Of a DNA stretch of 35,516 nucleotides, positions 2,330 to 23,434 are shown in pieces (positions within the stretch are counted from its first letter, which is position 1; every line of letters begins with the position of its first letter). Origin of the DNA: a bacterium (GTDB lineage: Bacteria; UBA9089; CG2-30-40-21; SBAY01); contig JBFLXS010000006.1 of assembly GCA_040755795.1 (NCBI GenBank), positions 1-35,516 of the forward strand. The letters are read 5' to 3'. The notes beneath the pieces were generated by a model, which saw only the letters and a program-made list of their open reading frames with translations, had not been told where the DNA came from and ran no database searches. The position numbers and the translations under genes were made by a program.

Positions 2330-3817
2330 ATGGATAAAGAAAATATACAAAAAATAATAGAAGAAGAAACTCCATTAATAATAAGGGATGATATTATTTT
2401 AAGAGCTGAATATGGCTATATAAATACCAATACTTTTATAGTAAAAGATAGTAAAAATGATAAAATGTTTTATATTACAGAGGAAGGATTTAAAATCCTT
2501 ACAGATTTATCTTCGAGTCGAACAATAAAGGGAATTTTAGGAATAATTTCGCCTCTTGATGAAGGAAAATTAGAAACGGTATATAAATTTTTAGATACTT
2601 TTCTAAAAGAAAATATTATTGTTAAAACAGAAAAATATGAAGAGAATAAAAATGTATTAAAAAATTTGGATTTGAAACCGATTGATAAATGTGTTTATAC
2701 ACCAATGAGTTTTCCTTCAACCATAAATTTATATCTAACTAATAGATGTAATTTGATGTGTAGGCATTGTATAAACTCATCTTCTCCGAATGAATTAAAA
2801 GGAGATGAACTCTCTACAGAGACAATAAAGGATTTATTAAATCAATTTGATAATGGAGGATTATTAGTATTAAAATTTTCTGGAGGAGAACCTTTATGCC
2901 GAGAAGATATAAATGAAATATTATTATCTGCAGCTCAATATAGATTTACATTAGAACTATTTTCTAACGGATTACTTATAAGAGAAGAAGACATAGAACT
3001 ATTTTCAGAAATCACCAAAATAAAACAAAAAGGATTTTCTATTAATGTATCAATAGATGGAGCTACCCCAAATTCCCATGATTGGTTAAGAGGAAAGGAA
3101 GGAGCATTTTTTAAAACATTAGAGACTTTAAAATTACTGGCAAAAAATAAAATAAAAACCTCTGTAGAAGCAATAATACATCAGAAGAATAAGGAGGAAT
3201 TGGAAGAAATAATTAATATCTGTCTTGATAATGGGGTAAGTGGGGTTTACTTTCACCCTGCTGCTTTCAACGGAAGAGCTATGAAAGAGAAAGACTTATA
3301 CTTGAATATAGATGATATGTCCAGGATTCTATTAAGAGGTAATGATTTAATAGAGAAATATGCTAAATATACCACCATTATTTTTGACCCTTATCGTATC
3401 CCTTTCAAAAAGGAGGAAAATAAGAAAGAAAGACTTGCTTTACCACCAAACTCGTGTCCTGCTGGTATGTGTGATATGGTTATTTCATGTGAAGGGAAAG
3501 TTTATCCGTGTATTGAAGCCGTTGGATTTCATAAGTTGGAAATGGGAGATGTGAAAAAAAGGAACATAGGTGATATATGGGAAGATGATAAGTGGAGTAT
3601 ACTTCGAGGAGGATGGGAATTAAAGGAGTTAAAGGTGTGTAATACTTGTAAATTTAAACAGGAGGAATGTAATGTAAGTAGGTGCCGGTGTTACCCGTAT
3701 AAAATTTTTGGTGATTTTTATGGCCCTTTACCTGAATGCTTCTATAATTATAAAACATTAGAATTAAGTGAAGATAAAATAACCCCCTATTTAAAATTAC
3801 AAGGGGGATTATTATAA
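2330..3817 (+). CDS. PqqD-domain radical SAM/SPASM peptide maturase 1
   Basis: This 495-aa enzyme has an N-terminal PqqD-like RiPP recognition domain (about 15-105) and a radical SAM core with Cys140-x3-Cys144-x2-Cys147 (CNLMCRHC) and SGGEP (184-188). Its C-terminal SPASM region is very Cys-rich (Cys376, 381, 387, 394, 437, 440, 447, 452, 454, 470) and would bind auxiliary Fe-S clusters. In the family this architecture installs thioether, C-C or C-O crosslinks or epimerises residues in ribosomal peptides. The gene at 4632 is a clear paralog. A 28-aa Cys-containing peptide gene lies between them, which fits a substrate role. Relative to the paralog it has additional SPASM cysteines (381 and 387), so the two enzymes may not be redundant. 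The reaction cannot be named from sequence. Confidence 0.9.
   Translation: MDKENIQKIIEEETPLIIRDDIILRAEYGYINTNTFIVKDSKNDKMFYITEEGFKILTDLSSSRTIKGILGIISPLDEGKLETVYKFLDTFLKENIIVKTEKYEENKNVLKNLDLKPIDKCVYTPMSFPSTINLYLTNRCNLMCRHCINSSSPNELKGDELSTETIKDLLNQFDNGGLLVLKFSGGEPLCREDINEILLSAAQYRFTLELFSNGLLIREEDIELFSEITKIKQKGFSINVSIDGATPNSHDWLRGKEGAFFKTLETLKLLAKNKIKTSVEAIIHQKNKEELEEIINICLDNGVSGVYFHPAAFNGRAMKEKDLYLNIDDMSRILLRGNDLIEKYAKYTTIIFDPYRIPFKKEENKKERLALPPNSCPAGMCDMVISCEGKVYPCIEAVGFHKLEMGDVKKRNIGDIWEDDKWSILRGGWELKELKVCNTCKFKQEECNVSRCRCYPYKIFGDFYGPLPECFYNYKTLELSEDKITPYLKLQGGLL
3778..3813 (+). repeat. Hairpin overlapping the 3' end of the first maturase gene
   Basis: AATAACCCCC (3778-3787) pairs with GGGGGATTATT (3803-3813) with one bulged A. 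The downstream sequence is AT-rich without a clean T-run. It may be a weak terminator or processing site that separates maturase and precursor expression. Confidence 0.4.
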
Positions 3818-3994
3818 ATAGTAAATGAGAATGTAGTTTTCCCCTCTTGTTTTAAAAGTTCTAATAAAAAGGATGTGAAGATGAAGAAGGATACCTCTCT
3901 CCTGATAAAAATGGTTATACTGCGAAAGGTGAGATAAGAGAAAATTTCAAATTCTCTCTTACCAAAATATTAGAGAGGAAGGAGGTGATAAAAA

Positions 3995-4081
3995 ATGATT
4001 ATTGAAGAAATGGAAGTAGAAGGGATACGTAATGAGATGACTAATTGCGGATGTGGAGGCAGTAAGGTGGTATGTAAGTGA
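3995..4081 (+). CDS. Putative RiPP precursor peptide (28 aa, CxC...C core)
   Basis: This is a 28-codon ORF with an essentially ideal ribosome binding site (GGAGGTGAT at 3981-3989, 5 nt before ATG). The N-terminal half is acidic and leader-like (four Glu in the first nine residues). The C-terminus is TNCGCGGSKVVCK, with Cys18, Cys20 and Cys27 and a Gly-rich turn. It sits between two PqqD-domain radical SAM/SPASM maturases, the usual place for their substrate. A long hairpin (4100-4158) follows immediately, as is common where a small precursor gene is expressed more than its downstream enzyme. It is too short for routine gene callers. I do not recognise the peptide family. The assignment rests on the RBS, composition and context. 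Confidence 0.7.
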   Translation: MIIEEMEVEGIRNEMTNCGCGGSKVVCK

Positions 4082-4099
4082 GAAAAGAGAATGAAAAAC

Positions 4100-4158
4100 G
4101 GGGTGTTATAGAGATAACCCGTAGAGTGAGATGAAGTTAAAAATTTCTATAACACCCC
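4100..4158 (+). terminator. Long stable hairpin downstream of the precursor gene
   Basis: GGGGTGTTATAG (4100-4111) and CTATAACACCCC (4147-4158) are perfect 12-bp arms. Pairing can extend inward to 16 bp with one G-U (4112-4115 with 4143-4146), leaving a loop of about 27 nt. There is no T-run after it (AAAATTT follows), so it may be a transcript stabiliser or partial terminator between precursor and second maturase. Confidence 0.5.
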
Positions 4159-4631
4159 AAAATTTGAAATGGGGGGAGGGGTTACTATTTCTTGTGATTG
4201 AGCAAAAAAGTTATTTGGAATGAAATTGATGGGCGTTTTTACTTCAAGTGCGGTTTTATAGGAGTTATTAGTCAAAATTTGATATGATGTGAGACAAAAA
4301 TCAAATATCAAAATGTAATTCAAAATGTAAAAAGCATGAGATTAAACCTATACAAATTCTCTTTGCATTTTTTTCATTTTGCATTTTGAGGTGGTGGGTG
4401 ATTCTCTTTGTGAAAATTTGGTTGATAACCGCTATATATATACATGTTAAAGGTGCGATTACCAAAAATTATGCTAAGCAATTTTATCCATTTCACAATT
4501 TATAAAAACCAACTTAAGAATTCCAATATTAACAAGGGAAGAGATAATATCATAAGAAAAGTAAAATAACACTTTTAATATTTGGAAGATTTGAATCTAA
4601 GTTATGACTTAAAGAAGAAGGATAATCTATT
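4159..4631. other. AT-rich intergenic region before the second maturase
   Basis: No supported gene was found. It contains an imperfect inverted repeat of 'CAAAATG'-type units (about 4308-4336 against 4362-4389), a kind of AT-rich hairpin often dispersed in intergenic DNA. An AT-alternating tract with TATATATATACATG (about 4433-4446) may hold a promoter for the 4632 gene. The ribosome binding site for that gene is probably AGAAGAAGGAT just before the ATG. Confidence 0.4.
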
Positions 4632-6137
4632 ATGAATAAAGAAGATAAATGGATAGTGAGAGAAGATATTATTCTAAGAGATGAAAGTAAATATATAAAT
4701 TCTAACATATATATAGTAAAAGATAATATATACGGCAGGCCATTTTATGTAACAAGAGAAGGATTTGAAATACTTAAATATTTAGCATTTCCAAGGAAGA
4801 TAGATGAAATTAAAGAATTCTATAAAAATTTCCTCAAATCTTCATTCTTAAATAAAGAAGAATCTGAAAAGATATCTAAATTTATCAACAAATTTATTGA
4901 GAATAATATTATAGTCAAAACAAATGAAGGTAAAGCTCATAAAAAAATATTATCAAATCTTTCACTTCCTTTGGTTAAAGATGTAAATTATATTCCTATG
5001 AGCTTCCCCATGGAAGTAATGATTCTTTTAACTGAGAGATGTAATTTAAGTTGTAGACATTGCATAATTTCATCTTCTCCAACTAAATCGAGGAAAGATG
5101 AACTTTCTACAGAAGAATTAAAGAGAATATTATTAGAGTTAGATAAAGGAGGATTACTTAATCTCATACTTAGTGGTGGTGAACCTCTGATTAGAAATGA
5201 TATATGGGAGATATTACTTTTTGCCTCAAGGTTAAGATTTTCTTTAAGTCTACTAACGAATGGAATATTATTATCTCTCCCACAGATAGAAGTACTTTCA
5301 GAGATTGCAAAAAGAAAGGGGAGAGGATTTTGGGTAAACATTTCCTTAGACGGTTCAACACCAGAATCTCATGCACGGTTAAGGGGAAAAGAAAGAATTT
5401 TTAATCGTACACTACAAAATTTAAAATTGTTAGTGAAGAATAATATCCAATGTTCAACCGAGACAATACTGCATCAGAAAAATAAAGATGAAATTGAATC
5501 TATAATTAAAATATGTTTTGAGTTAGGAGTAAAGATAGTAACTTTGCATCCAGCATCCTTAAGTAGAAAGAGGGTTAAAGAAAAAGATTTATATATGACC
5601 TTAGATGAAATCATGGAAATTGGATATAAAATAGAAAAATTAAAAGAAAAATATTCTAATTATGGAAAAATAAATTTTGATCTATATCATTATTTTTTTA
5701 CACAACCATCAGTAAGGATGAAAAAAGAGCAAGAAGAACAGAAAGATAATTCAATTAAGAGAATTAAACTGCCTCAAAATTGTTGTTCGGCTGGAATGTA
5801 TTCAATGGTCATTTCTGCAAAAGGAAAGGTTTATCCCTGTGATGAAGTTTATGGATTGCAAATGTTTGAGATGGGAGATGTAAGAAAGAGTATTTTAATC
5901 GAGATATGGCATAATGAAAAATGGAATATATTTAGAGGAGGATGGAAAAGAGAGGATGTAAAGGTGTGTAATAAATGTATGTACAACGAAAGTTGTAGCA
6001 TTATTAAATGCAGGTGTTATCCTTATAGCATCTTCAGAGATTTTTATGCCCCTTTACCGGCGTGTGTCTATAATTATAAAACAATAGGATTAAATGAGGA
6101 AGATATCACTCAATATAAAACTTGTCTTAATTTTTAA
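4632..6137 (+). CDS. PqqD-domain radical SAM/SPASM peptide maturase 2
   Basis: This 501-aa protein is colinear with the product of 2330-3817. It has a PqqD-like recognition domain (about 8-100), a radical SAM Cys137-x3-Cys141-x2-Cys144 motif, SGGEP (181-185) and a SPASM region with Cys384, 385, 403, 446, 449, 455, 460, 462 and 478. At the two positions where the paralog has Cys381 and Cys387 this protein has Tyr and Ala, so cluster ligation or chemistry may differ. The two probably arose by duplication and may act in succession on the 3995-4081 peptide. It is separated from the precursor by about 550 bp and may have its own promoter. Confidence 0.9.
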   Translation: MNKEDKWIVREDIILRDESKYINSNIYIVKDNIYGRPFYVTREGFEILKYLAFPRKIDEIKEFYKNFLKSSFLNKEESEKISKFINKFIENNIIVKTNEGKAHKKILSNLSLPLVKDVNYIPMSFPMEVMILLTERCNLSCRHCIISSSPTKSRKDELSTEELKRILLELDKGGLLNLILSGGEPLIRNDIWEILLFASRLRFSLSLLTNGILLSLPQIEVLSEIAKRKGRGFWVNISLDGSTPESHARLRGKERIFNRTLQNLKLLVKNNIQCSTETILHQKNKDEIESIIKICFELGVKIVTLHPASLSRKRVKEKDLYMTLDEIMEIGYKIEKLKEKYSNYGKINFDLYHYFFTQPSVRMKKEQEEQKDNSIKRIKLPQNCCSAGMYSMVISAKGKVYPCDEVYGLQMFEMGDVRKSILIEIWHNEKWNIFRGGWKREDVKVCNKCMYNESCSIIKCRCYPYSIFRDFYAPLPACVYNYKTIGLNEEDITQYKTCLNF

Positions 6138-6414
6138 TTGAAATTGCAATGGATGAGCCCAAGTTGCGCACTTTAAAGAAACAAATGTAGTAATATCAAG
6201 GCTCTACAAGACTTCAGACACTACATCATATATAAATTTCTTAAGAGGTAAGACTCAAGAAGACAAGGATTTTTTATTGATGGCCTTTTTGACGACCATA
6301 TTGTAAAACAAGAATGTGATTTAAAGAAAGTATTTCTGAAGAACCTAATATATAATATCATAAGTAGAGAAATTTGTCAAGAAGAATTTTACTATTAAAA
6401 GACATTTTTTAAGA

Positions 6415-6519
6415 CACTACAAAGGCGATTTTCAGATTTTATATATAGATTTTATGCGGGTTTTTACACGTACCACCCCCCTATTTTTAACTATTTTTTT
6501 AACAAAAATGCGCAAGTTG
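6415..6519 (+). repeat. Dispersed repeat related to window positions 7-47
   Basis: CACTACAAA..CGATTTT (6415-6432) and AAAATGCGCAAGTTG (6505-6519) both recur in the same order at 7-23 and 33-47 (CACTACAAA.CGATTTT and AAAATGTGCAAGTTG), with different spacing. These may be ends of a mobile element or MITE. The left copy lies next to the truncated LysR gene. Confidence 0.4.
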
Positions 6520-6606: not shown

Positions 6607-6684
6607 ATGAACCATTATATGAGAACTGAACCTTGCACCAGAGGGCGTAATCTTTTAGTGTGGAACCAGTGGAATGGGAGATAA
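6607..6684 (+). CDS. Short ORF (25 aa) of unknown nature
   Basis: It is preceded by GAGGAGGAAAA, a strong ribosome binding site, and encodes a peptide with one Cys and a Trp-rich end (LLVWNQWNGR). No family is recognised. It could be a second small peptide gene or a piece of a decayed gene, and the surrounding frames are broken. It is listed only because of the RBS and its location near the peptide maturases. Confidence 0.2.
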   Translation: MNHYMRTEPCTRGRNLLVWNQWNGR

Positions 6685-6854: not shown

Positions 6855-7769
6855 ATGCTCTTACAGGATTTATTAATAAAAATTCCTTTTCTCTTTACAT
6901 TTTTTTATTATTTTGTACCTTATAAACTAAAATTTCTTTTTTTTCATATTTATTCCATTATATTTTTCAAAAGACACCAAAACCAATATATGCCGAATAT
7001 ATTCTCTAATTTAAAAGAAGCATTAGGGAATGAAAAATCCGAGGCGGAAATTGAGTTGATAGCTAAAAGAAATTTGGGACTCTTAATGAAGAAAGAAGCG
7101 GAGTTCTGTTTAAATTTTTCCCGGAAGATTGGGCAGAAAGATAAACGGATAATCTTTGAGTTTGAAAATCTTAAACAAACAGTGAAAATAAATAAAGGAG
7201 TGATTATAGCTCCACTTCATCTAACTGAATTTTTTTGGGCATGGCCATATTGGATAGCAAGTCAAGGATACAAAGTTCAAGTAGTTACTAATGAACCATT
7301 CGCTAAAGAAAGACTGATGGTAATAAGAGAAGAATTAGATGATGAAAAGGAGAATAAAAGTGGGTGGTATAATATAGAGATAATACAGGTAACTCCTTTG
7401 ATACTTCAGTCTTGTCGCAATTTTTTAAAAGAAGGAGGAATTGTAATAATATACCCTGAATTTCAAGAGGGAAAGAAAAAACATATCATTGAATTCCTTG
7501 GGATTCCTATATATGTAGGATTAGGGATTATAGAGTTAAGTCTCAATATAGGAGCACCAATCCTATTATCTTGGGTAATTAAAAAGAATACTACTGTTAT
7601 AGCTAGGATAGATAAACCTACGGAGTTAATTCTAACCGGAGATAAAAAAGAGGATATTGAGGTTAATATAAAACAGGTTTTCAAAATAATAGAATCTCAT
7701 ATCCAAAAAGAACCTGAAGAATGGTATCTATGGAAAGAAATTCATAGATTAAGGGCGATTGAAAAATGA
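6855..7769 (+). CDS. LpxL/HtrB-like lysophospholipid acyltransferase-superfamily protein
   Basis: This 304-aa protein has an N-terminal hydrophobic anchor (about 5-38). Its overall pattern matches late lipid A acyltransferases: the strand-His region GVIIAPLHLTEFFW around His122, a second motif IIYPEFQEGKKKH (about 196-208), then FLGIPIYVG and GAPILLSWVI. The family usually transfers acyl chains from acyl-ACP to a membrane lipid using an H-x4-D/E dyad. Here the residue five after His122 is Phe127 and the only nearby acid is Glu125, so catalysis may be altered. It has a good RBS (AGGAGGGAGAGG). The neighbours suggest it could attach the cluster's acyl product to an amine or lipid acceptor, but the acceptor is unknown. 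Confidence 0.75.
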   Translation: MLLQDLLIKIPFLFTFFYYFVPYKLKFLFFHIYSIIFFKRHQNQYMPNIFSNLKEALGNEKSEAEIELIAKRNLGLLMKKEAEFCLNFSRKIGQKDKRIIFEFENLKQTVKINKGVIIAPLHLTEFFWAWPYWIASQGYKVQVVTNEPFAKERLMVIREELDDEKENKSGWYNIEIIQVTPLILQSCRNFLKEGGIVIIYPEFQEGKKKHIIEFLGIPIYVGLGIIELSLNIGAPILLSWVIKKNTTVIARIDKPTELILTGDKKEDIEVNIKQVFKIIESHIQKEPEEWYLWKEIHRLRAIEK

Positions 7770-7794: not shown

Positions 7795-9603
7795 ATGAGG
7801 GTGCCGAATTTGCTCAAGAGAGTAATATTATTATGTATTTTAGTGGGATTTGTAGATAAATTCTTAGAGGCAAAGGAAGGAGCAATGGGAACAATTACCG
7901 ATAAATGCAATCTTGCGTCTTGTAAAATAAGCTTTCCAGCAAAGCCACAAGAAAGTAAAGCAGATAATATTGCCAAAGATTTTACCTTAAAGGATATTTT
8001 GGGCAAGGGATATTTCCTACAAATGTTTCGTGGGAAGGTTATTTTGTTACATTTTGAAGCTACCTGGTGTGGAGGATGTCAATGCCAGGCTAAAAACATA
8101 GAAGGAGTATGGAAAAGATATAAATCAAAGGGAGTCCAGATTCTGAGTATCTATTCTGGAGAAGGGATATCGGCAGTAGTGGATTATAGAAAGCATTATG
8201 GCATTACTTATCCACAACTAATAGACCCTTCCTATAGGATATCTCGGGAATACGAGGCGCATATTGTGCCATACACAATTATTATTGACCAGAATATGAA
8301 GGTTAGGTATAAATGTGGATTAGTAGGATTCTTTTCTCCTCTTAGATTGATTGATGAGTTGTTTTTATGGTGGATGGCCCAAAAGAAAACCTTACCAGGG
8401 GAAGAAATTTCTCTCCCAAAAGAGCAACCTGAAATAAAAGGAAAGGAAGAAATAGGAATAATTGAGATTACTAAAGGTGCAGGGTTGAATGAGTTTTCCA
8501 CTACCTTGACCGATAATTCAGGTAATGTCTGGGTAGTCTGGTGTGAGAAAAAGGATGAGCGAGGAAATATTTATGCCAGATATTATAATGGTGAGGTCTT
8601 GTCTGAGAAAATGGATGTAAGTGGAGATAAAGGGGATAATTATCAACCGAGAATAAGTCTTGATTCATCAGGAAATGTCTGGATAGCCTGGGCTTCCAAC
8701 AGAGAAGGGAATTATAACATCTATGCCAGATATTACGATGGGGAAAACTGGTCTGAGATAATAAAGGTAACATCTGACAAAAAGGATGAGATGCATCCGG
8801 TAATAGCCTGTGATAATACCAATCGTATATGGTTTGCGTGGTATAGATGGACACCAATGTCTTTATTGTTGTTCAGAGAGAGAGGTCGCCATGTATTTGC
8901 CAAATATTATGATAATAAGAGTGGTGTTTGGTCAAAAGAAACGCTGATTACACAAGATTTTAGTAAATGGGACCATCACTCAGACCCAGAAATCACAGTA
9001 GATAACCAGGGGAAGATATGGTTAAGCTGGACTACTAATTATCATCCCGAATGTTATAAACCACCCAAAAGGCAGAAGTGCGATGGACCTTCTATCTTTG
9101 CTAAATGCTATGATGATGATAATTGGGGCACTCCTACAGTGGTAAGTATAGATACCCAAGGACAACATTCCAGGAATAATTACTATTCTAAAATAACTGC
9201 TGATAACTCAGGTGGAATATGGATAGTTTGGGAAGGTGCTTCTAAAGATTTTAAAAAGAGAAATATTTATGTTAAATATTATAAAGATGGGAAGTGGTCT
9301 GAGGTAATTCCTGTGAGTTCTTATGAAGGAGTTGAAAGTTCTCCAATTATCAGGCTAGATAGAGAGAATAACCCCTGGGTATTATGGAAAAGGGATGTAG
9401 ATGGAAGATGGGATATTTATGGTAGTTATTATCAGAATAGTAAATGGACATCTCCATTTCCAGTGATTAGCTCAAGTGATGATGTAAATTCTTATGGCTT
9501 AGCCGTGGATAAAATGGGTAAAATTTATGTTGTCTGGTCTTCCTATGATGAATATGGTAATTCTAATGTCTATATAAAAAGTATTTTAAGAGGGGAAAAA
9601 TGA
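7795..9603 (+). CDS. Secreted thioredoxin-like (TlpA/AhpC-type) domain fused to seven-bladed beta-propeller
   Basis: This 602-aa protein starts with a signal peptide (about 1-26). A thioredoxin-fold domain (about 58-195) carries the redox motif Cys92-GG-Cys95 in ATWCGGCQCQ. After it come seven repeats of a D-x-x-G-x-x-W-x-x-W type unit (GNVWVVW, GNVWIAW, NRIWFAW, GKIWLSW, GGIWIVW, NNPWVLW, GKIYVVW), which predicts a seven-bladed propeller. The protein would be periplasmic or surface-exposed and could reduce or isomerise disulfides on a partner bound by the propeller. It is 25 bp after the acyltransferase gene and 3 bp before the ABC ATPase, so it is probably co-transcribed with both. The fusion is unusual in my knowledge. 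The molecular partner cannot be deduced. Confidence 0.8.
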   Translation: MRVPNLLKRVILLCILVGFVDKFLEAKEGAMGTITDKCNLASCKISFPAKPQESKADNIAKDFTLKDILGKGYFLQMFRGKVILLHFEATWCGGCQCQAKNIEGVWKRYKSKGVQILSIYSGEGISAVVDYRKHYGITYPQLIDPSYRISREYEAHIVPYTIIIDQNMKVRYKCGLVGFFSPLRLIDELFLWWMAQKKTLPGEEISLPKEQPEIKGKEEIGIIEITKGAGLNEFSTTLTDNSGNVWVVWCEKKDERGNIYARYYNGEVLSEKMDVSGDKGDNYQPRISLDSSGNVWIAWASNREGNYNIYARYYDGENWSEIIKVTSDKKDEMHPVIACDNTNRIWFAWYRWTPMSLLLFRERGRHVFAKYYDNKSGVWSKETLITQDFSKWDHHSDPEITVDNQGKIWLSWTTNYHPECYKPPKRQKCDGPSIFAKCYDDDNWGTPTVVSIDTQGQHSRNNYYSKITADNSGGIWIVWEGASKDFKKRNIYVKYYKDGKWSEVIPVSSYEGVESSPIIRLDRENNPWVLWKRDVDGRWDIYGSYYQNSKWTSPFPVISSSDDVNSYGLAVDKMGKIYVVWSSYDEYGNSNVYIKSILRGEK

Positions 9604-9606
9604 TTA

Positions 9607-10563
9607 ATGGGTATAATTAAAATAGAGAATGTAACAAAGGTATTCTATCCCAAAGATGAGAAAAAAAGAATTATTGCCGTAGATAATCTAAATTTAGAAA
9701 TCGAGAAAGGAGAGATTTTAAGTATTTTAGGACCAAATGGGGCGGGGAAGACTTCCATTGTTAAAATATGCTGTGGGTTATTAATCCCAAATAAGGGAAG
9801 AGTTCTAATTAATGGCTATGATGCTTTTACCCATCAGAAAAAAACAAAGAAGATAATAGCTGTACTTCTGGAAGGAGATAGAAATCTTTATTGGCGATTA
9901 ACCGCCTATCAGAATCTAAAATATTTTGGTGCATTGAAACAATATCATAATAAAGAGTTTGAGAAATGGATTGATTATATTCTGGATTTTTTTGAGTTAT
10001 CCGACCGTAAACATAACGAGGTTAAAGAATTTTCCAGAGGAATGAAACAAAAACTCTCCTTAGCTGTTGCTTTAATTGGTAACCCGGAGATTTTATTTTT
10101 AGATGAGCCTACTTTAGGATTGGATGTTTATGCAAATCGAGCCATAAAAAATAAACTTAGAGAGATTAGCTCTTTAATGCAAAAAACTATTATTATCGCT
10201 ACGCATCAAATGGATGTAGCGAGGGATCTCTCTAATCGAGTGGCTATCTTAAATCGAGGTAAATTATTAGCCATAGATAAGCCAGAAAGTCTAATTAGAT
10301 TATTCTCGCGCCAATATTATGAAATCAGGATAAAAGGAGAATTAACCCCTTACCAATATCAAAGTTTATCCGATCTAAATAATTTGAATATCAATAAGGA
10401 AGAAGGAGAAATATTAGTCTCTGGTGTTATAGAAGAACCTCACTTTATATATAAAATAATAGATATTCTAAAAGAGGGTACTGAAATTATAGCAATAAAT
10501 AAAATTGAACCGAGTTTGGAAGAGGTATTTCTAAAAATTATGGGGACGACTAAACAAGGATGA
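9607..10563 (+). CDS. ABC transporter ATP-binding protein (ABC-2 exporter type)
   Basis: This 318-aa ATPase has Walker A GPNGAGKT (42-49), ABC signature FSRGMKQKLS, Walker B ILFLDEP and the switch His in IIATHQMD. The extended C-terminus (about 225-318) is typical of the drug and polysaccharide exporters related to DrrA/NatA. It overlaps the next gene by 4 bp (ATGA), so it pairs with that permease. It presumably energises export of a product of this region, but the substrate is not visible from sequence. Confidence 0.9.
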   Translation: MGIIKIENVTKVFYPKDEKKRIIAVDNLNLEIEKGEILSILGPNGAGKTSIVKICCGLLIPNKGRVLINGYDAFTHQKKTKKIIAVLLEGDRNLYWRLTAYQNLKYFGALKQYHNKEFEKWIDYILDFFELSDRKHNEVKEFSRGMKQKLSLAVALIGNPEILFLDEPTLGLDVYANRAIKNKLREISSLMQKTIIIATHQMDVARDLSNRVAILNRGKLLAIDKPESLIRLFSRQYYEIRIKGELTPYQYQSLSDLNNLNINKEEGEILVSGVIEEPHFIYKIIDILKEGTEIIAINKIEPSLEEVFLKIMGTTKQG

Positions 10564-11360
10564 TTGATTTATTTTTTCTATTAAAAGAAGAGATTAAAAG
10601 AAATATTATTATGCGTAAAAGATACGCTATAGAATATATTGCAGGATTAATATTAATGTATGGTGTGTTTATAGGGATGTTTGCCGGACTTTCTCATATA
10701 AAAATGCTCTCAGATGAGAAAATAGGTCCGTATTTAATGATAGGTTATTTAATGTGGCAAATATTTGGTTGGGTGACCATAGAAGGTATAGCGGATGAAT
10801 TAGGAGATGAGAGTATTTTGGGGACAATTCAACAAATATATATCTCTTCCTTTAAAATAATGGATGTTCTCTTATGTCGGACCCTGGCTAAATTTATACT
10901 TGGCAGTGGAGAATTAATGATTATGTTACTGGCAATTTTTCTCACCACAGGTGAATTTTTATATATTACGAGAATATCAGTTATTATTCCATTTGTTCTA
11001 ACTCTTATGGGTCTATATGGTTTTGGACTTTCGTTAGCTGGGTTAAATTTAGTTTTTAAACGAGTTAGAAATATTACGGAAATTATCACCTGGGCACTCT
11101 TTTTCCTTGCGGGCGTAATGATACCATTAGAATTTTTCCCACCTATAATACAATTTATTGGTAAAACACTACCACTAACTCAAGGGATAGAGGTATTAAG
11201 AACAATGATTATTGAACAAAAATCATTAATTTTTACCTTACATCAAGGAGACTTATTCCTTTTAATGATAAATTCTGGGGTATATCTGTTATTAGGGATT
11301 TATATCTTTAAGATTGCAGAAAAAATTGCTTTAAGACGAGGGATAATTGGATATTTTTAG
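10560..11360 (+). CDS. ABC-2 family exporter permease
   Basis: This 266-aa polytopic protein has about six hydrophobic segments. The pattern matches ABC-2 permeases: an N-terminal amphipathic start, IAGLILMYGVFIGMFAGL, and a late GVMIPLEFFPPIIQFIGKTLPLTQGIEVLR segment characteristic of DrrB/NodJ-like exporters. It is translationally coupled to the ATPase before it. A gap of about 130 bp follows before the CrtI-like gene, so the exporter may end one transcription unit or be read through into the biosynthetic operon. Confidence 0.88.
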   Translation: MIDLFFLLKEEIKRNIIMRKRYAIEYIAGLILMYGVFIGMFAGLSHIKMLSDEKIGPYLMIGYLMWQIFGWVTIEGIADELGDESILGTIQQIYISSFKIMDVLLCRTLAKFILGSGELMIMLLAIFLTTGEFLYITRISVIIPFVLTLMGLYGFGLSLAGLNLVFKRVRNITEIITWALFFLAGVMIPLEFFPPIIQFIGKTLPLTQGIEVLRTMIIEQKSLIFTLHQGDLFLLMINSGVYLLLGIYIFKIAEKIALRRGIIGYF

Positions 11361-11492: not shown

Positions 11493-12992
11493 TTGAAAGA
11501 CAATTATGATGTAATCGTTATTGGAGCAGGGATAGGTGGTTTAACCTGCGGAACATTTTTAGCTAAGGAAGGAATAAGTGTATTGGTGGCGGAAAAGAAT
11601 GATAAGGCAGGAGGATATTGTACCTCATTTAGCCGGGGAGATTATATCTTTGATAGCGGTCCTTCCTCTATTAGTGGCTTAAGCCAAGGAGGGACATTGA
11701 GAAACACATTATCTTTGCTTCAGTTAGAAGACGAAATAACATTTCTTCCCTTAGATTTTAAGGAAAAACTCATTTTCCCCAACTATACCATCGTTATTCC
11801 AACTAATTTTGAGGAATACCAACAAGAACTTATGAGAAGATTTCCTGATGAGAAGGAAGGGATAACTAAATATTTTAAACATATAGAGAATTTGTATTAT
11901 GAGTTTCAAAATATAATGGATGGGGATCTTCTAACCTTATCTAAACAACCTTCGTTGGTTTCATTCAAGAAATATCCAAATATGATTAGATTTCGAGATG
12001 TAACCTTTCACCAGATATTAGATAAATTTTTTACTGATTGTTCTATTAAGGGAATTTTAGCAGTTGGAGGTTGTGGAAGAATAGGACTTCCTCCTAGCAA
12101 AGCTTCATTTATAAGTGTGGCTATTGATAGCATTGAAACTTTAAAATATGGCTTAGTTCATTTTAAAGGAGGGAATCAATTCTTATCAGATGCTTTTGTA
12201 AAAGGGCTGGTGAAATATGGTGGGAATTTAATGTTAGGGCAAAAGGTAAAAAAAATATTGATAGAACAACATAAGGCTTGTGGAATTGTGTTAGAAGACG
12301 GAACACAAATAAGAGGTAAATATATTGTCTCTAATGGTGATGCTAAACAAACTTTTCTTAATCTAATTGGAGAGGAATATTTAAGTAAAGAATTTGTAAG
12401 AATGTTAAATAACGCAGAAGTATCACTATCTGCATTTATAGTTTATCTGGGGGTAAATATTGATTTAAAAAATAAAGGGATAAAAGAAAGTCTATTATGG
12501 TATATTCCATCTTACGATATAAAAGAAGAATATGAAAAGAGTTACGATATCCTGGGAGGAGATTTATATATTCTTATCCCCTCAAATATAGATTCGGGAT
12601 TAGCACCTTTGGGTAAAAGTTGTATTAAGATAGAACAATTAGTGCCGTATCATTGTGGTCATAATTGGGATGAATGTAAGGAAGAGATGGCTAATAGATT
12701 AATTAAAAGAGCAGAACAGATTATTCCAGACCTTTCTAACTATATTGAGATTAAAGAAATAGCTACTCCTTTGACCTTGGAGCGATATACTCTAAATAGT
12801 GAAGGGGCATGTTATGGTTGGGCTAAGACTATAGAGCAAGGAGAATTTTATTATTCTCCAAACCAAAAGACTCCTATTGAAAATCTTTACTTAGCAGGAC
12901 ACTGGACATTCCCGGGGCATGGTGTTCCCACAGTAGCTTGCTCAGGGATATTAGCAGGTAAGAGTATCTTGTCGGAGATAAATAAATCATGA
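11493..12992 (+). CDS. CrtI-like FAD-dependent oxidoreductase (phytoene desaturase/carotenoid isomerase family)
   Basis: This 499-aa protein begins with a dinucleotide-binding fold VIVIGAGIGGLTCG (8-20) and the acidic turn VLVAEKNDKAGGYCTS. It ends with the conserved NLYLAGHWTFPGHGVPTVACSG FAD-contact segment of the CrtI/CrtISO family. The start is TTG at 11493 behind a strong AGGAG site. Members desaturate or isomerise carotenoids, and related proteins occur in other lipid clusters, including candidate ladderane clusters of anammox bacteria. No phytoene synthase or prenyltransferase is present, so a polyene or acyl chain made by the adjacent KS enzymes is a more likely substrate than a carotenoid. 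Its stop overlaps the start of the KS gene (ATGA). Confidence 0.88.
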   Translation: MKDNYDVIVIGAGIGGLTCGTFLAKEGISVLVAEKNDKAGGYCTSFSRGDYIFDSGPSSISGLSQGGTLRNTLSLLQLEDEITFLPLDFKEKLIFPNYTIVIPTNFEEYQQELMRRFPDEKEGITKYFKHIENLYYEFQNIMDGDLLTLSKQPSLVSFKKYPNMIRFRDVTFHQILDKFFTDCSIKGILAVGGCGRIGLPPSKASFISVAIDSIETLKYGLVHFKGGNQFLSDAFVKGLVKYGGNLMLGQKVKKILIEQHKACGIVLEDGTQIRGKYIVSNGDAKQTFLNLIGEEYLSKEFVRMLNNAEVSLSAFIVYLGVNIDLKNKGIKESLLWYIPSYDIKEEYEKSYDILGGDLYILIPSNIDSGLAPLGKSCIKIEQLVPYHCGHNWDECKEEMANRLIKRAEQIIPDLSNYIEIKEIATPLTLERYTLNSEGACYGWAKTIEQGEFYYSPNQKTPIENLYLAGHWTFPGHGVPTVACSGILAGKSILSEINKS

Positions 12993-14227
12993 AAAGGGTT
13001 GTTGTCGCAGGAATAGGTGTATTATCACCGATTGGAAATGATAAAGAGGAATATTGGGAAGGTTTAAGAAGTGGCAAGTCAGGCATTGAAACAATTACCC
13101 TATTTGATACACGAAATTATAAATTTAAGAGAGGCGGAGAAATAAAGGATTTTAATCCTACAAAATACTTTACCAGGAAAGGACTAAGACGGTTGGATAG
13201 AGCTTCTCAAATGGTATTAATTGCTACCCAGGAGGCAATAGATGATGCCCAGATAAATTTTAACCAGATGGAGAAAAACAATTGTGGAGTAGTATTGGGA
13301 ACTACTCTGGGAGGAATGGTTTCTGGGGAAAAATATTATCGCCATTTGAAAAAGAGGCAAGATAGAGTTTATGCTTCTTTATTATTAGATTTCCCAATGT
13401 ATTCAGCAACAGACCATATTTCTATCAGATATAAGTGTAGCGGTTCAATCTTGACTATCTCTACCGCGTGCTCTGCAAGTAATCAGGCTATTGGTTGTGC
13501 CTTTGATTTAATTCGAAAAGGGGAAGATACAATAATTATCACCGGCGGTTTTGACCCATTGTCAGAATTGACCTTTGCAGGTTTTGGAATATTAAGGATT
13601 ATGAGCCTTGATAAGATTAGACCCTTTGATAAGAATAGAACAGGATTAATTCTGGGTGAAGGGGTGGGTATTCTTATTTTGGAAGAATTAGAGCATGCTT
13701 TAAATAGGAAAGCAAAAATATATGCTGAAATAATCGGATACGGAGCAACTACTGATGCATACCATATGACCGCTCCTCATCCACAAGGAGAAGGTGCAGC
13801 TAATGCTATGCAAAAGGCATTAGATGATGCAAATATTAAACCAGATGATGTAGATTATATTAATGCCCATGGGACAGGAACGCTATTTAATGATTTATCA
13901 GAAACAATGGCTATAAAAAAGATAATGGGAGAAGGGGCTTATAAAATACCCATTAGTTCTACAAAATCTATGATTGGACATACTTTAGGTGCGGCAGGGG
14001 CATTGGAGGCAATTGCTACTATTTTAGCCATGCAAAAAGGGATAATTCCTCCCACAATTAATTATGAAACCCCTGACCCTAAATGTGACCTTAATTATGT
14101 GCCCAATTATTCTATTCAAAAAAATATAAGGATTGCTTTATCAAATTCCTTTGGTTTTGGAGGAAATAATGCTACTATAGTGTTTAAAAAATGGGAGGGA
14201 GAAACAGATGACTCTACCTCAAAGTAA
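12989..14227 (+). CDS. Beta-ketoacyl-ACP synthase II-type ketosynthase (KS-A)
   Basis: This 412-aa FabF-family protein has a complete catalytic triad: Cys161 in STACSASNQ, His294 in NAHGTGTLFND and His331 in SMIGHTLGAAGALE, with Lys326. It should decarboxylate malonyl-ACP and extend an acyl chain. It is one of four KAS-fold proteins in the operon and is probably paired with the CLF-like protein at 16908-18128 or the one at 22186-23415. It overlaps the upstream oxidoreductase by 4 bp and the downstream PLP gene by 20 bp, indicating tight co-translation. The sequence is close to FabF, but the duplicated CLF arrangement points to a type II polyketide or specialised fatty acid system rather than housekeeping synthesis. 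Confidence 0.93.
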   Translation: MKRVVVAGIGVLSPIGNDKEEYWEGLRSGKSGIETITLFDTRNYKFKRGGEIKDFNPTKYFTRKGLRRLDRASQMVLIATQEAIDDAQINFNQMEKNNCGVVLGTTLGGMVSGEKYYRHLKKRQDRVYASLLLDFPMYSATDHISIRYKCSGSILTISTACSASNQAIGCAFDLIRKGEDTIIITGGFDPLSELTFAGFGILRIMSLDKIRPFDKNRTGLILGEGVGILILEELEHALNRKAKIYAEIIGYGATTDAYHMTAPHPQGEGAANAMQKALDDANIKPDDVDYINAHGTGTLFNDLSETMAIKKIMGEGAYKIPISSTKSMIGHTLGAAGALEAIATILAMQKGIIPPTINYETPDPKCDLNYVPNYSIQKNIRIALSNSFGFGGNNATIVFKKWEGETDDSTSK

Positions 14228-15437
14228 AATGGAAATGATAAGTAAGATTGCGCAAGAGTATTCCCTTGTCTTTATATGTTTTGAGGATATATTACAAAAT
14301 AATATTGAAAGATTAAAAATATCTGCAAATAATTATCTTAAATTATCTCTCTTTTATTCATATAAAACAAATTGGTTACCTGGGATATGCAAGGTTATAC
14401 ATAAAAATGGTGTTGGTGCAGAAGTAGTCTCTGGATTTGAGTTGTGGTTAGCACGCTTGCTCAAAGTTCCTAATGAGCAAATTATCTTTAATGGCCCCTG
14501 CAAAACTTCAGAGGAATTGAAGGAAGCCAGTAATCCAGGTATTGGATGTTTAAATATAGATTCTTTATCTGAATTTAATCGATTATTAAATACATGGAAT
14601 GGTAATAGTCCAGGAAATTTAGGGATTAGAATAACCCCTGAAAAAATTAGAGATATGCAGGTGTTTGGAATCCTTAGTTCTGACTATAATACTATTGATA
14701 AAATTGTGGAGACAGCTATTAAAAATAACTTTAATCTTAAACTCTTGCATACCCATATAGCTCACTATCTTAACTATAAGGAGATGTGTATTTATGCTTG
14801 TGAAGAATTAATTAAAGTTTTAGCTTATCTCTACAAAAAATATAATATTTTTATTAAAAATATAGATTTAGGAGGAGGACTGAATCCTATTTTATTAGGA
14901 GAAGATAAAGGTTGTTTTTCAGACTGTGAAAATTTCTTTGCCACAGTAAGCAAGATCTTTGAAAAAGAATTGTTGAAACACAGTCTGCCATATCTTATAC
15001 CAAATCTTATTTTAGAACCAGGTCGATTTATAGTTAACAATGCAGTTATGTTATTAACCACTATCCATGCTTTAAAAGAAGTAGACAACCAACATATAGC
15101 TGTATTAGATGCAGGAACAAATATATTAGGAACGCCACATGAAGATATAATTCCTATTTCCACGACTTCTTCCAATAAGACTATTTTGTATAGATTGGTT
15201 GGACCATTATGCTTCCCAGGAGATACAGTAGCTATTTCTGTAAAACTACCACCAGTAAATATAGGTGATAGTCTTTTAATCTTAAATTGTGGTGCTTATA
15301 GCTTATCTAACTCCTGGCAGTTTATTAAAACAAGACCACCAGTAATATTGGTGACAAACAATGATGAGATTAAAATTATTAGAGAAAAAGAGAGGTATGA
15401 AGATATGATAGCCCTGGACAGGTATGATAATCTTTAA
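14208..15437 (+). CDS. Fold-type III PLP-dependent decarboxylase (ornithine/diaminopimelate decarboxylase family)
   Basis: This 409-aa protein has PLP-binding Lys53 in FYSYKTN, the substrate-strand GAEVVSGFEL (70-79), the phosphate-binding IDLGGGLN (Gly222-224), EPGR (270-273), catalytic Cys335 with Asp339 in GPLCFPGD, and Tyr364 in CGAYSLSN. These are the full set of active-site elements of diaminopimelate/ornithine/carboxynorspermidine decarboxylases. The substrate cannot be assigned. It could be a free amino acid feeding polyamine synthesis, or a carrier-bound aminoacyl group as in BtrK of butirosin biosynthesis. Its start lies inside the end of the KS gene with a GGGAGG ribosome binding site at about 14192-14197, so it is coupled to chain synthesis. 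Confidence 0.88.
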   Translation: MTLPQSKMEMISKIAQEYSLVFICFEDILQNNIERLKISANNYLKLSLFYSYKTNWLPGICKVIHKNGVGAEVVSGFELWLARLLKVPNEQIIFNGPCKTSEELKEASNPGIGCLNIDSLSEFNRLLNTWNGNSPGNLGIRITPEKIRDMQVFGILSSDYNTIDKIVETAIKNNFNLKLLHTHIAHYLNYKEMCIYACEELIKVLAYLYKKYNIFIKNIDLGGGLNPILLGEDKGCFSDCENFFATVSKIFEKELLKHSLPYLIPNLILEPGRFIVNNAVMLLTTIHALKEVDNQHIAVLDAGTNILGTPHEDIIPISTTSSNKTILYRLVGPLCFPGDTVAISVKLPPVNIGDSLLILNCGAYSLSNSWQFIKTRPPVILVTNNDEIKIIREKERYEDMIALDRYDNL

Positions 15438-15452
15438 GTGAGAAGAAATACT

Positions 15453-16415
15453 ATGGGAGATTTTACAAAACCAGAATTTTGGAATGAGAGTGAAGAATAT
15501 ATATTTATAAGTATTTTCCCTGGAACGAGGGATTTTGTGAACTTATTTAACATAGGCTCATTTATAACTTCCGCTGATAAGATTTTACATGTGGGTTGTG
15601 GACCAGGTGATTGTGTCATAGAATTAGGACAACACATAAAAGAGGGTATGGTCTATGGTATTGATTTCTCAGAACACTCAATTAATATTGCTCTAGAAAA
15701 GTTAAAATCCCCCACTTTCATTCCTCAAGTAATGGTATGGGGGAGAATAATGGGATTGTGGCATGAAGGGATAATTAAAGATGAAGATTTATATAAATTC
15801 ACATTAGAGATGTGTAGAGAAAGCAAAAAAGATATTCTATCTGAGATAAAAAATGTATATCATCAATATATAGAAATAATAAAACATTATACCTTATTAT
15901 CACCATATTCTACCCTTACATCAGGATTAAAAAAATTAGGGTTGATTGACATTTCTACCCCTCTTTGTTACTATAAATTAATTGAAGGGGTCAAAAGATT
16001 TAATGACCCAATATTTGAGAAAATTGTAGAAACGGATATTCAGAAGTTACAACAAGTAGTAAAATTTGATAAAATGGATGCGTTCTATCTTTTATATCCT
16101 GATAATTATTTTGACAAGGTTTTCGCTCGAGAGATAGAACCGCTTCTTCGTAAAAATGGCTCAAAATGGTTAGATGAGATGATAAGAGTATGTAAACATG
16201 ACGGCGTGATTTTATATGGAGGTTTCAGACTCCCGGGAGAATATCTAAAATCAGATGAGTTAGAAAGTGTTATTTCAGAAATAGAAAAAAGAGAAAAAAT
16301 TACTTTGATAGAAATGGGGAAAAGGAAGTTGGTCTCGTGGTGGGACCCATTATTTAATCTGTCAGACCTTAATGAGAATGTATTTACTCCATATGTGATA
16401 ATAAAAAAAGATTGA
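15453..16415 (+). CDS. Class I SAM-dependent methyltransferase with large internal insertion
   Basis: About 320 aa. SAM-binding motif I is ILHVGCGPGDC (44-54), followed by the acidic strand VYGIDFSE. The expected motif II/III sequence (DAFYLLYPDNYFDKVFARE, about 209-227) does not follow until about 130 residues later. The intervening part (about 86-200) is mostly helical and not seen in standard small-molecule methyltransferases. It could form a lid or bind a carrier protein. I prefer the ATG at 15453 (GAGAAG upstream) to a GTG at 15438 that touches the previous stop. It lies between the PLP decarboxylase and a small unknown gene in the KS operon. The methyl acceptor is unknown. Confidence 0.8.
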   Translation: MGDFTKPEFWNESEEYIFISIFPGTRDFVNLFNIGSFITSADKILHVGCGPGDCVIELGQHIKEGMVYGIDFSEHSINIALEKLKSPTFIPQVMVWGRIMGLWHEGIIKDEDLYKFTLEMCRESKKDILSEIKNVYHQYIEIIKHYTLLSPYSTLTSGLKKLGLIDISTPLCYYKLIEGVKRFNDPIFEKIVETDIQKLQQVVKFDKMDAFYLLYPDNYFDKVFAREIEPLLRKNGSKWLDEMIRVCKHDGVILYGGFRLPGEYLKSDELESVISEIEKREKITLIEMGKRKLVSWWDPLFNLSDLNENVFTPYVIIKKD

Positions 16416-16428
16416 CAAGGAGAAAAAA

Positions 16429-16911
16429 ATGGAAATAGAGAGTATATTTGTGACAAAGTTACCAGATTGGAAGGTTCTGGAAAGGAAAAATAAGAGACAG
16501 ATAAGTTTTTCAAAACCATTTGAACGGGAAGAGATTGTATTCGAAGCTCCAGCAACAATCCCTAGTATGGGAAAGGCTGGAGTAATTAAGATGAGAATAA
16601 ATTATCCTCTTCCAAATGAAGAATTGATTATAAGAAGGTCGATAGAAATAGCGAAGGAAGAGATGTGTAAAGGAATACCTCCCTACTTAAAATATAATGA
16701 AGATGAAATTTCAATTGAAACGATAACTATTGAAAATAAAAGAGTAGAAAGTGTGACCATCCCGCTCTATGTATTTCCAGGTATCACACCAAAAGTTAGG
16801 TCTATTATTATATCTATGGGCAAAATAACATATGTTACCTATGGACTCTATGAGAATGCTGAGATTTTAGCTAATATATTGATAGAAAATATAACTGAGG
16901 AAGAAAGATGA
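16429..16911 (+). CDS. Conserved-looking hypothetical protein, 160 aa
   Basis: I do not recognise a family. The protein is soluble and mixed alpha/beta with no signal peptide or membrane segment. It has an Ile/Val-rich beta pattern in the second half (VESVTIPLYVFPG, VRSIIISMGKITYVTYG) and a C-terminal helix. A good RBS (CAAGGAGAAA) precedes the ATG. It lies 13 bp after the methyltransferase gene and overlaps the CLF gene by 4 bp (ATGA), so it is almost certainly part of the biosynthetic operon. Cyclase, hotdog-type or accessory roles are possible but nothing in the sequence proves any. Confidence 0.7.
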   Translation: MEIESIFVTKLPDWKVLERKNKRQISFSKPFEREEIVFEAPATIPSMGKAGVIKMRINYPLPNEELIIRRSIEIAKEEMCKGIPPYLKYNEDEISIETITIENKRVESVTIPLYVFPGITPKVRSIIISMGKITYVTYGLYENAEILANILIENITEEER

Positions 16912-18128
16912 ACGCTCGTGTTGTAATCACAGGTATAGGCATAATTTCTCCCTATGGGGTAGGGGAGGAAGTCTTTTATAAGGCATTAAAAGAAGGAACC
17001 TCCTGTATAAAGAAGATATCTTTATTTGATGTATCTTCTTTTAAATCTCAAAAAGGTGGTCTTATTACTAATTTTTTACCAGAAGAATTTGATAATGATG
17101 AAAGGTTTTGTCGCTTACCAAGGATTGCTCAATATTCAATTGTTGCCGCAGATTTGGTTATGAAAGATATACAAGATGCTTTTGATTCTACTAAAATAGG
17201 AATATTTTTAGGGACGGACCATGGAGCAATAGAATTTACTGAAAGATTTTATTCAAATTTAATTGAAAAAGGTCCTGAAAGGGTTAATCCGTTATTATTT
17301 CAAGAAACGGTATTTAATGCCCCTGCAAGTCATATTAGTTTAAAATATAAAATTAAGGGACCAACTATCGTCATTACCTCTGGTTATGTTTCGGGATTAT
17401 TATCTGTTATGCAAGGAGTTGATTATCTTCAGAGAGGGAAATTAGATTTAGCTATAGTTGGGGGAATAGAGGAATTAACAAAGACAGTTTATGAAGTGGA
17501 ATATCATTTAGGAATTCTATCCCCTCAAGATGAAGGAGAGGAAGAGTGTAGACCGTTTGATGCAAAGAGGAACGGGTTTATCCCTTCCGAGGGGGCAGGA
17601 ATTCTTCTGATAGAGAGATTAGACCAGGCACGGAAACGAAAAGCTCATATCTACGGAGAAATAATAGGTTGGGGAAATTCATCTGATTCGTATAAAATTG
17701 CTGATTACTCTCCTGAGGGTGAGGGAATTAAAAATGCTATGTTAAAGGCATTGAGAGAGGCAAACTTAAATCCCGAAAAGATAGATTATATTGCTGCGGC
17801 TGCCAATGGAAGCAGAGTATTAGATAGAGCTGAAACAAAGGCAATAAAGGATGTATTTGGCAATTATGCTTATAAAATTGCTCTCAGTAGTATAAAATCT
17901 ATAGTTGGTGAATCAAGTGCACCAAGTGGTGTTTTTAATTTAATCGCAGTCCTATTTAGCATGGAGAATAATCTTATTCCTCCAACAATAAATTATGAAA
18001 ATTATGATCCTGAATGTGATCTTTATTATGTTCCGAACATACCGAAAAGAATGGAAGTAAAAACAGGACTGGCTAATGCCATCTCCTTTGGTGGTAATAG
18101 TTGTAGTATTATAGTCCAAAAATTATAA
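16908..18128 (+). CDS. Chain-length-factor-like KAS protein (CLF-A), active-site Cys replaced
   Basis: This 406-aa FabF-fold protein has all catalytic residues replaced. Aligned to the KS at 12989, the nucleophile Cys position is Tyr160 (VITSGYVSG), the first His is Ala (AAAANGSRVLD) and the second His is Glu (SIVGESSAPSG). This matches a KS-beta/CLF partner that shapes chain length in a heterodimer with a true KS. The usual Gln of actinobacterial CLFs is not present, so it represents a different lineage. The N-terminal RVVITGIGIISPYG and C-terminal NAISFGGNS segments are standard for the fold. Overlap with the preceding 160-aa gene and a 24-bp gap to the ACP gene place it in the operon. Confidence 0.9.
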   Translation: MNARVVITGIGIISPYGVGEEVFYKALKEGTSCIKKISLFDVSSFKSQKGGLITNFLPEEFDNDERFCRLPRIAQYSIVAADLVMKDIQDAFDSTKIGIFLGTDHGAIEFTERFYSNLIEKGPERVNPLLFQETVFNAPASHISLKYKIKGPTIVITSGYVSGLLSVMQGVDYLQRGKLDLAIVGGIEELTKTVYEVEYHLGILSPQDEGEEECRPFDAKRNGFIPSEGAGILLIERLDQARKRKAHIYGEIIGWGNSSDSYKIADYSPEGEGIKNAMLKALREANLNPEKIDYIAAAANGSRVLDRAETKAIKDVFGNYAYKIALSSIKSIVGESSAPSGVFNLIAVLFSMENNLIPPTINYENYDPECDLYYVPNIPKRMEVKTGLANAISFGGNSCSIIVQKL

Positions 18129-18152
18129 AAAAGAAAGGAGTAAGTAAAAAAT

Positions 18153-18464
18153 ATGGAAGAAGTGATTTCAATTGATGAGATTAAAAAAAGACTAAAACAA
18201 CTCATTGTGGAACGGTTAAGGTTAAAAATTAAGCTTGAGGAAATAGAGGATGAAGCACCGCTTTTTGTAGAAGGATTAGGATTAGACTCAATTGAGGCGT
18301 TAGAGATTATAGTAGGGATAGAAGAGGAGTTTAATATAACTGTTCCTGGTGGAGAGGATGAGGAAATGCAACAAAGATTTTATTCTATTAATACTTTAGC
18401 CCAATATGTCAAGGAACTCTTAGAAAAGAAGGATTTAGAAGTACCAACTCCACAATACCTCTAA
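18153..18464 (+). CDS. Acyl carrier protein
   Basis: This 103-aa carrier has the phosphopantetheine site GLGLDSIEALEI with Ser46, a normal helix pattern and a somewhat extended C-terminus (KKDLEVPTPQYL) compared with the roughly 78-aa housekeeping AcpP. A strong RBS (AAAGGAG) precedes it. It is located between a CLF gene and fabZ, so it is the dedicated carrier for this pathway and the probable target of the AcpS at 1914-2285. Confidence 0.93.
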   Translation: MEEVISIDEIKKRLKQLIVERLRLKIKLEEIEDEAPLFVEGLGLDSIEALEIIVGIEEEFNITVPGGEDEEMQQRFYSINTLAQYVKELLEKKDLEVPTPQYL

Positions 18465-18473
18465 AAAGGAATA

Positions 18474-18962
18474 ATGAAAATGGAAGAAAAGATAATGGAG
18501 ATATATGACATAAAAAACCGAATACCTCATAGATTCCCAATGTTATTAGTAGATAGAATAATTGAAATAGAAAGAGGTAAACGGGCAGTAGGGGTTAAAT
18601 GTGTAACCATAAACGAAGGTTTCTTTGAAGGCCATTTCCCTGAGGAACCTATTATGCCAGGTGTTCTGATCATCGAATCTATGTCTCAAGTAGCCGGTAT
18701 CCTTCTCTCAGAAGAAAATGAGAGAGGGAGAAAAAATGAGGGAAAGGAAAATGAGAATGAGGAGAGAAGAATGTATTTGGGGATGGTAGATCATATTAAA
18801 TTTCGTAAACCTGTAATTCCTGGCGATAGAATGCTCATTGAGGTTAATGTCATAAAAACCTTTGTGAATATGGCGAAAGTTAAGGGAGAGGTAAAGGTAG
18901 ATAATGAAATTGTAGCCGAGGGAGAATTAGATTTTGTTGTAGTTAAGAGAAAGGGTAGATAA
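18474..18962 (+). CDS. fabZ: 3-hydroxyacyl-ACP dehydratase (FabZ-like)
   Basis: This 162-aa hotdog-fold enzyme has the FabZ signature IPHRFPMLLVDRI, catalytic His54 in GHFPEEPIMPGV and Glu68 in IIESMSQ. It removes water from 3-hydroxyacyl-ACP to give a trans-2-enoyl chain. A highly charged stretch of about 18 residues rich in Glu, Asn, Arg and Lys (82-99) is inserted between the central helix and the next strand and is not part of ordinary FabZ. No recognisable enoyl reductase is in the window, so its products may stay unsaturated, as in highly reducing type II polyketide systems making polyenes. Confidence 0.93.
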   Translation: MKMEEKIMEIYDIKNRIPHRFPMLLVDRIIEIERGKRAVGVKCVTINEGFFEGHFPEEPIMPGVLIIESMSQVAGILLSEENERGRKNEGKENENEERRMYLGMVDHIKFRKPVIPGDRMLIEVNVIKTFVNMAKVKGEVKVDNEIVAEGELDFVVVKRKGR

Positions 18963-19047
18963 TAGTATTGAAGGGAAATATTCGGATAAAAGAGGAAAAC
19001 CTTGAGAGAAAAAGTTTGAACTTTTATTATCAAAGGAGAAACACCTA

Positions 19048-19797: not shown

Positions 19798-19868
19798 CAA
19801 GGTTTTTGAAATGTTCATAACTCATTGCAAGATAAGAAGATATAATTTAAAAAGGAGAGGGAAAAATA

Positions 19869-20963: not shown

Positions 20964-20972
20964 AAAAAACAG

Positions 20973-23415: not shown

Positions 23416-23434
23416 TTTTTTATAGGTAGAGTAA

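Follow-up and report, generated by a model that had tools for sequence, protein, structure and literature searches.

The locus described here is probably a RiPP pathway in which a 28-residue precursor, encoded by a short unannotated open reading frame (ORF), is modified in its core by two maturases, rSAM1 and rSAM2, each carrying a RiPP recognition element (RRE). The product would probably be a small cysteine-rich modified peptide, because the short gene lies between duplicated radical enzymes with a peptide-gripping domain. The window analysed (35,516 nucleotides) spans all of contig C6 in a draft genome of 4.7 Mb and 771 contigs, with listed values of 100% for completeness and 4.2% for contamination, and the source bacterium is known solely from draft genome data. 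Within the window, the AcpS gene (1914-2285), rSAM1, the peptide ORF, rSAM2 and the gene for an LpxL-like acyltransferase (6855-7769) lie within a single co-directional run, with the AcpS and acyltransferase genes flanking the radical SAM/SPASM pair. The original prediction had placed the ORF between two radical SAM/SPASM paralogues of a RiPP-type locus; its position is correct, the enzymes on either side are 50% identical across their whole length, and the architecture, a short gene that appears real next to two paralogues with a likely fused RRE, supports the RiPP assignment. The main features are collected in Table 1.

Table 1. Features of the locus, in window coordinates.
Feature	Position	Strand	Evidence
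rSAM1, 495 aa: N-terminal RRE (likely; about residues 15-105), radical SAM and SPASM domains	2330..3817	+	Pfam, hhalign, AF2/Foldseek
Perfect Shine-Dalgarno (SD) sequence AAGGAGGTGAT of the peptide gene	3979..3989	+	anti-SD pairing, genome-wide count, shuffles
Candidate precursor peptide, 28 aa, MIIEEMEVEGIRNEMTNCGCGGSKVVCK	3995..4081	+	unannotated ORF; start-signal strength
Strong stem-loop, 16-nt arms, 94% complementary, without T run	4100..4158	+	folding versus shuffles
rSAM2, 501 aa: RRE (likely), radical SAM and SPASM domains	4632..6137	+	Pfam, alignment, hhalign
TlpA-like thioredoxin domain plus repeat domain; possible thiol partner (from position only)	7795..9603	+	
ABC exporter ATPase; 43% identical to its counterpart in the C186 locus	9607..10563	+	sequence comparison
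ABC-2 permease; 34% identical to its counterpart in the C186 locus	10560..11360	+	sequence comparison

The short gene and its start signal

The peptide gene had been predicted to possess an ideal ribosome binding site, and the pairing energies bear this out. At -19.0 kcal/mol, its anti-SD pairing is the strongest among the genuine starts of the window, the runner-up reaching -13.4 kcal/mol, while the annotated CDS starts (n = 29) have a mean of -6.0 and a best value of -11.3 kcal/mol. When the intergenic region was shuffled 2,000 times with dinucleotides preserved, a pairing of -19 kcal/mol was never reached. An ORF of 20 aa or more with three cysteines in its last 14 residues arose in 55 of the 2,000 shuffles, and such an ORF combined with an SD of -10 kcal/mol or better in 2. 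The arrangement AAGGAGGTGAT-N3-9-ATG was counted 15 times across the genome, and its reversed control 0 times; downstream of 13 of these starts lie ORFs with a length of 28 aa or more, many of which begin like signal peptides, and downstream of the other 2 lie 3-codon frames. Behind the gene, the 119-nt stretch that contains the stem-loop folds at -29.8 kcal/mol (z -3.1). Given the lack of a T run, a role of this element in mRNA stabilisation or attenuation is more likely than one in classical termination; Rfam at gathering thresholds returned no RNA match in the window. Together, the SD, shuffle, genome-wide and stem-loop data are good evidence for a predicted peptide gene that would be highly translated.

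The stem-loop also bears on a different and rather improbable reading, in which the short ORF encodes a leader (attenuator) peptide that regulates rSAM2, the substrate of the maturases being encoded elsewhere or at 6607-6684. The location of a strong stem-loop directly after the ORF would suit such a device, cysteine supply could be sensed through the Cys codons, and a second small ORF of 25 aa (MNHYMRTEPCTRGRNLLVWNQWNGR, 6607-6684) with a fair SD of -12.2 kcal/mol lies behind rSAM2. However, the short ORF and rSAM2 lie 550 nt apart, the hairpin lacks a T run, the SD is as strong as in genes of this genome that are presumably highly expressed, and a site between two RRE enzymes is a usual position of a precursor. 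The 25-aa ORF itself is possibly a second peptide or a decayed gene.

Searches of Pfam and NCBIfam with the 28-aa peptide gave no usable family match, and no RRE-binding motif was recognised in it. A-type Fe-S carriers have a CGCG motif at their C-terminus, and we considered whether the peptide could be a fragment of such a carrier; this idea was dropped because the remainder of the peptide does not appear to resemble one.

The two maturases and their probable recognition domain

Both enzymes match PF04055 and PF13186 in Pfam, and both fall far under every family cutoff in NCBIfam, where the top matches (ScmE, AhbD and NirJ2) have scores of approximately one third of the cutoffs or less. These matches are what would speak for NirJ/AhbD/ScmE-like enzymes whose substrate is a small molecule or cofactor, with the peptide being unrelated. 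We regard this as very unlikely, given the low scores and the fused RRE fold, which argues for a peptide substrate.

That fold could not be seen by standard family searches. The original prediction had assigned a PqqD-like domain to both enzymes; the isolated N-terminal domains (first 120 residues of each) gave nothing convincing in Pfam and NCBIfam, and a sequence profile of the domain yielded only chance-level matches among PDB chains, but the assignment is backed by profile and fold comparison. With hhalign, a profile of the two N-domains scored 30.0 against eight PqqD-like proteins of the phylum, compared to 11.0 +/- 2.1 (maximum 21.9) for shuffled controls. Taken individually, rSAM1 scored 26.7 and rSAM2 17.5, the latter inside the range of the best shuffles; the hhalign support for an RRE comes mainly from rSAM1 and extends to rSAM2 only through its homology with rSAM1. 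The best of five AF2 models of the N-domain is of medium confidence (pLDDT 65, compared to 34-44 for the remaining four) and has three strands followed by three helices in its core (for the strand-helix order that defines an RRE, see PMC12710340); a full-length model built from two sequences (pLDDT 42) was set aside as too poor. When the N-domain model was compared to the PDB with Foldseek, the leading matches were TigE (PDB 8VPO; the best, E 1.3e-4), TbiB1, MccB, a cyanobactin-type (LynD-type) heterocyclase, SuiB, CteB and PbtF, i.e., nearly all RRE proteins. We therefore grade the N-terminal domain as a likely rather than a proven RRE, because confidence in the model is medium and the rSAM2 score is low; the RRE evidence makes the RiPP reading well supported.

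The SPASM regions differ in one respect. As predicted, Cys381 and Cys387 are present only in rSAM1, both being absent from rSAM2 in the alignment, while C376, C394, C437, C440, C447, C452, C454 and C470 are common to both enzymes. The two additional residues lie outside the canonical SPASM motif, and we take them not to be canonical ligands. The proposal that different cysteine sets point to two successive modifications is not supported by this comparison: it is weak because the canonical ligands are all present in both enzymes, and the extra pair in rSAM1 does not of itself argue for two different reactions. Thuricin CD provides a precedent for paired radical SAM enzymes that act as one unit (PMC12093266).

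Relatives and named systems

The phylum sample comprised 19 genomes, and in the 18 others besides the source genome we found neither a homologous enzyme pair nor a homologue of the peptide. Scans of viral, plasmid and phage sequences returned zero orthologues. Beyond the phylum, a scan of genome contigs gave a single relative with 22% identity, which by its sequence looks like a SCIFF-type maturase; the query was one protein and not a profile, so that relatives in other phyla may be missed. The literature searched contained no description of a radical SAM peptide with a CGCGG core.

According to the original prediction, the core matches no named class. This is true of the peptide and not of the motif. 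CGCGG names the family TIGR03995 ('CGCGG family putative rSAM-modified RiPP protein'), a candidate family of haloarchaea, but its HMM (cutoff 70 bits) leaves the 28-aa peptide outside the family, with no match up to E = 10. The TIGR03995 example that we compared resembles the present case in that CGCGG lies close to the C-terminus and hydrophobic residues come after it, with radical SAM/SPASM genes nearby (there at 2-3 kb). It differs in being a 98-aa protein, ending CGCGGHVVRVHVE, with no visible similarity to the 28-aa peptide outside the motif. CGCGG is thus most likely a convergent or recurrent target motif in the two.

Sactipeptide and ranthipeptide systems are alike in that RRE-rSAM-SPASM enzymes, sometimes paired, are found beside a short precursor; thuricin CD TrnC/TrnD and RumMC1/RumMC2 are such pairs for comparison, and SuiB, CteB and SkfB are fold and sequence relatives. 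No SCIFF or ranthipeptide family matched the peptide, and rSAM1 scored 70.6 bits with the PapB family, compared to a cutoff of 340. To our knowledge, the CxC...C core resembles no known core of these systems, and the TigE precursor is likewise unlike the 28-aa peptide. SynChlorMet is similar in that ScmE is the best NCBIfam match for rSAM1 and the cassette has two radical SAM/SPASM proteins, but the scores of 134 and 136 bits, against an ScmE cutoff of 400, place the enzymes outside ScmE/ScmF. The locus is best described as an RRE-rSAM/SPASM RiPP variant with an unusually short CxC precursor.

Two further RiPP-like loci in the same genome speak for the RiPP reading. One (contig C186, 1419-5897) has a 74-aa candidate precursor, a radical SAM enzyme, a stand-alone PqqD-like protein and a membrane protein resembling an M50-type peptidase; its ABC exporter is homologous to the pair at 9607-11360 in the window. 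The other (contig C84, 64-4991) has a PqqD protein, a SPASM fragment where the contig ends, and a 49-aa Cys-containing peptide (MRKVYQKPAISSEKMFEQ..., from 427) with zero NCBIfam matches and a perfect SD identical to that of the 28-aa gene. In Clostridioides difficile plasmid p_TW11, the region 3917-6456 is a sactipeptide-like locus with two adjacent radical SAM genes, an S8 peptidase, an ABC transporter, and a 59-aa Cys peptide that is annotated only as hypothetical and has no NCBIfam match.

Neighbouring genes and the proposed pathway

The ABC pair downstream of the maturases is a plausible exporter of the peptide product because it resembles the pair in the C186 locus, which has a radical SAM enzyme and a PqqD protein. 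No protein closely homologous to the TlpA-like one was found in the rest of the phylum. Apart from the RiPP genes, the cluster looks suited to making a polyketide or a fatty-acid-like compound, with polyamine chemistry. The rest of the window encodes several ketosynthases (KS), ACP, FabZ, FabG, an AMP-binding ligase, a PLP decarboxylase and a BpsA-like aminopropyltransferase, the names KS, ACP, FabZ and FabG being readings of the sequences and not family-search matches. The stretch 11493-24730, with type II PKS/aryl-polyene-like genes next to those for the aminopropyltransferase and PLP decarboxylase, is an unusual polyketide-polyamine combination. A third radical SAM/SPASM gene (24732-25796), lacking an N-terminal RRE, adjoins the AMP-binding ligase; a search of three other genomes of the family gave a best match of 32% identity and no close orthologue. 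Upstream of the radical SAM module lies a SAM decarboxylase gene (1479-1829), and just before it (1263-1479) a short ORF precedes a terminator-like hairpin with a T run (1390-1411), possibly a transcription attenuator for polyamine genes.

This setting invites the idea of a RiPP-polyketide-polyamine hybrid, in which the modified peptide is joined to an acyl/polyamine chain made by the KS/ACP/FabZ/FabG, SAM decarboxylase and BpsA-like genes. Gene position is the sole support, with the radical SAM module lying between AcpS and the LpxL-like acyltransferase in the co-directional run. No gene that would join the parts was identified, and a BpsA-KS-KS fragment is conserved in another genus of the family (G006:C309; BpsA 70% identical), in a genome where we found no radical SAM pair, which fits separate modules but is weak evidence because that contig is only 3 kb long. 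We consider a hybrid unlikely. A new RiPP class, in which the paralogue pair forms a compact CGCGG core, crosslinked or metal-binding, for subsequent attachment to the polyketide/polyamine chain, also seems doubtful.

For the RiPP pathway with the 28-aa precursor, we infer that the peptide is the substrate and would consist of an acidic N-terminal leader of approximately 15 residues, followed by a core rich in Cys, probably TNCGCGGSKVVCK. Each maturase would hold the leader via its own fused recognition element, and the core would be modified using the radical SAM cluster and the SPASM auxiliary clusters, with the two enzymes acting together or in turn. Since there are three cysteines and two SPASM enzymes, thioether crosslinks between Cys and neighbouring residues (sacti- or ranthi-type) are judged the likeliest chemistry, which we put forward tentatively. 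The ABC pair would probably export the product; no obvious leader peptidase is encoded near the locus.

With this locus, a small bacterial phylum gains a very short precursor that had escaped annotation and a duplicated RRE-rSAM pair whose recognition domain standard Pfam and NCBIfam searches miss; the gene cluster around them has a different chemistry. Should the core carry the inferred modification, the product would be a new small crosslinked peptide scaffold. The locus also bears on the question of whether radical SAM enzymes recurrently target CGCGG, a motif flagged in haloarchaea.
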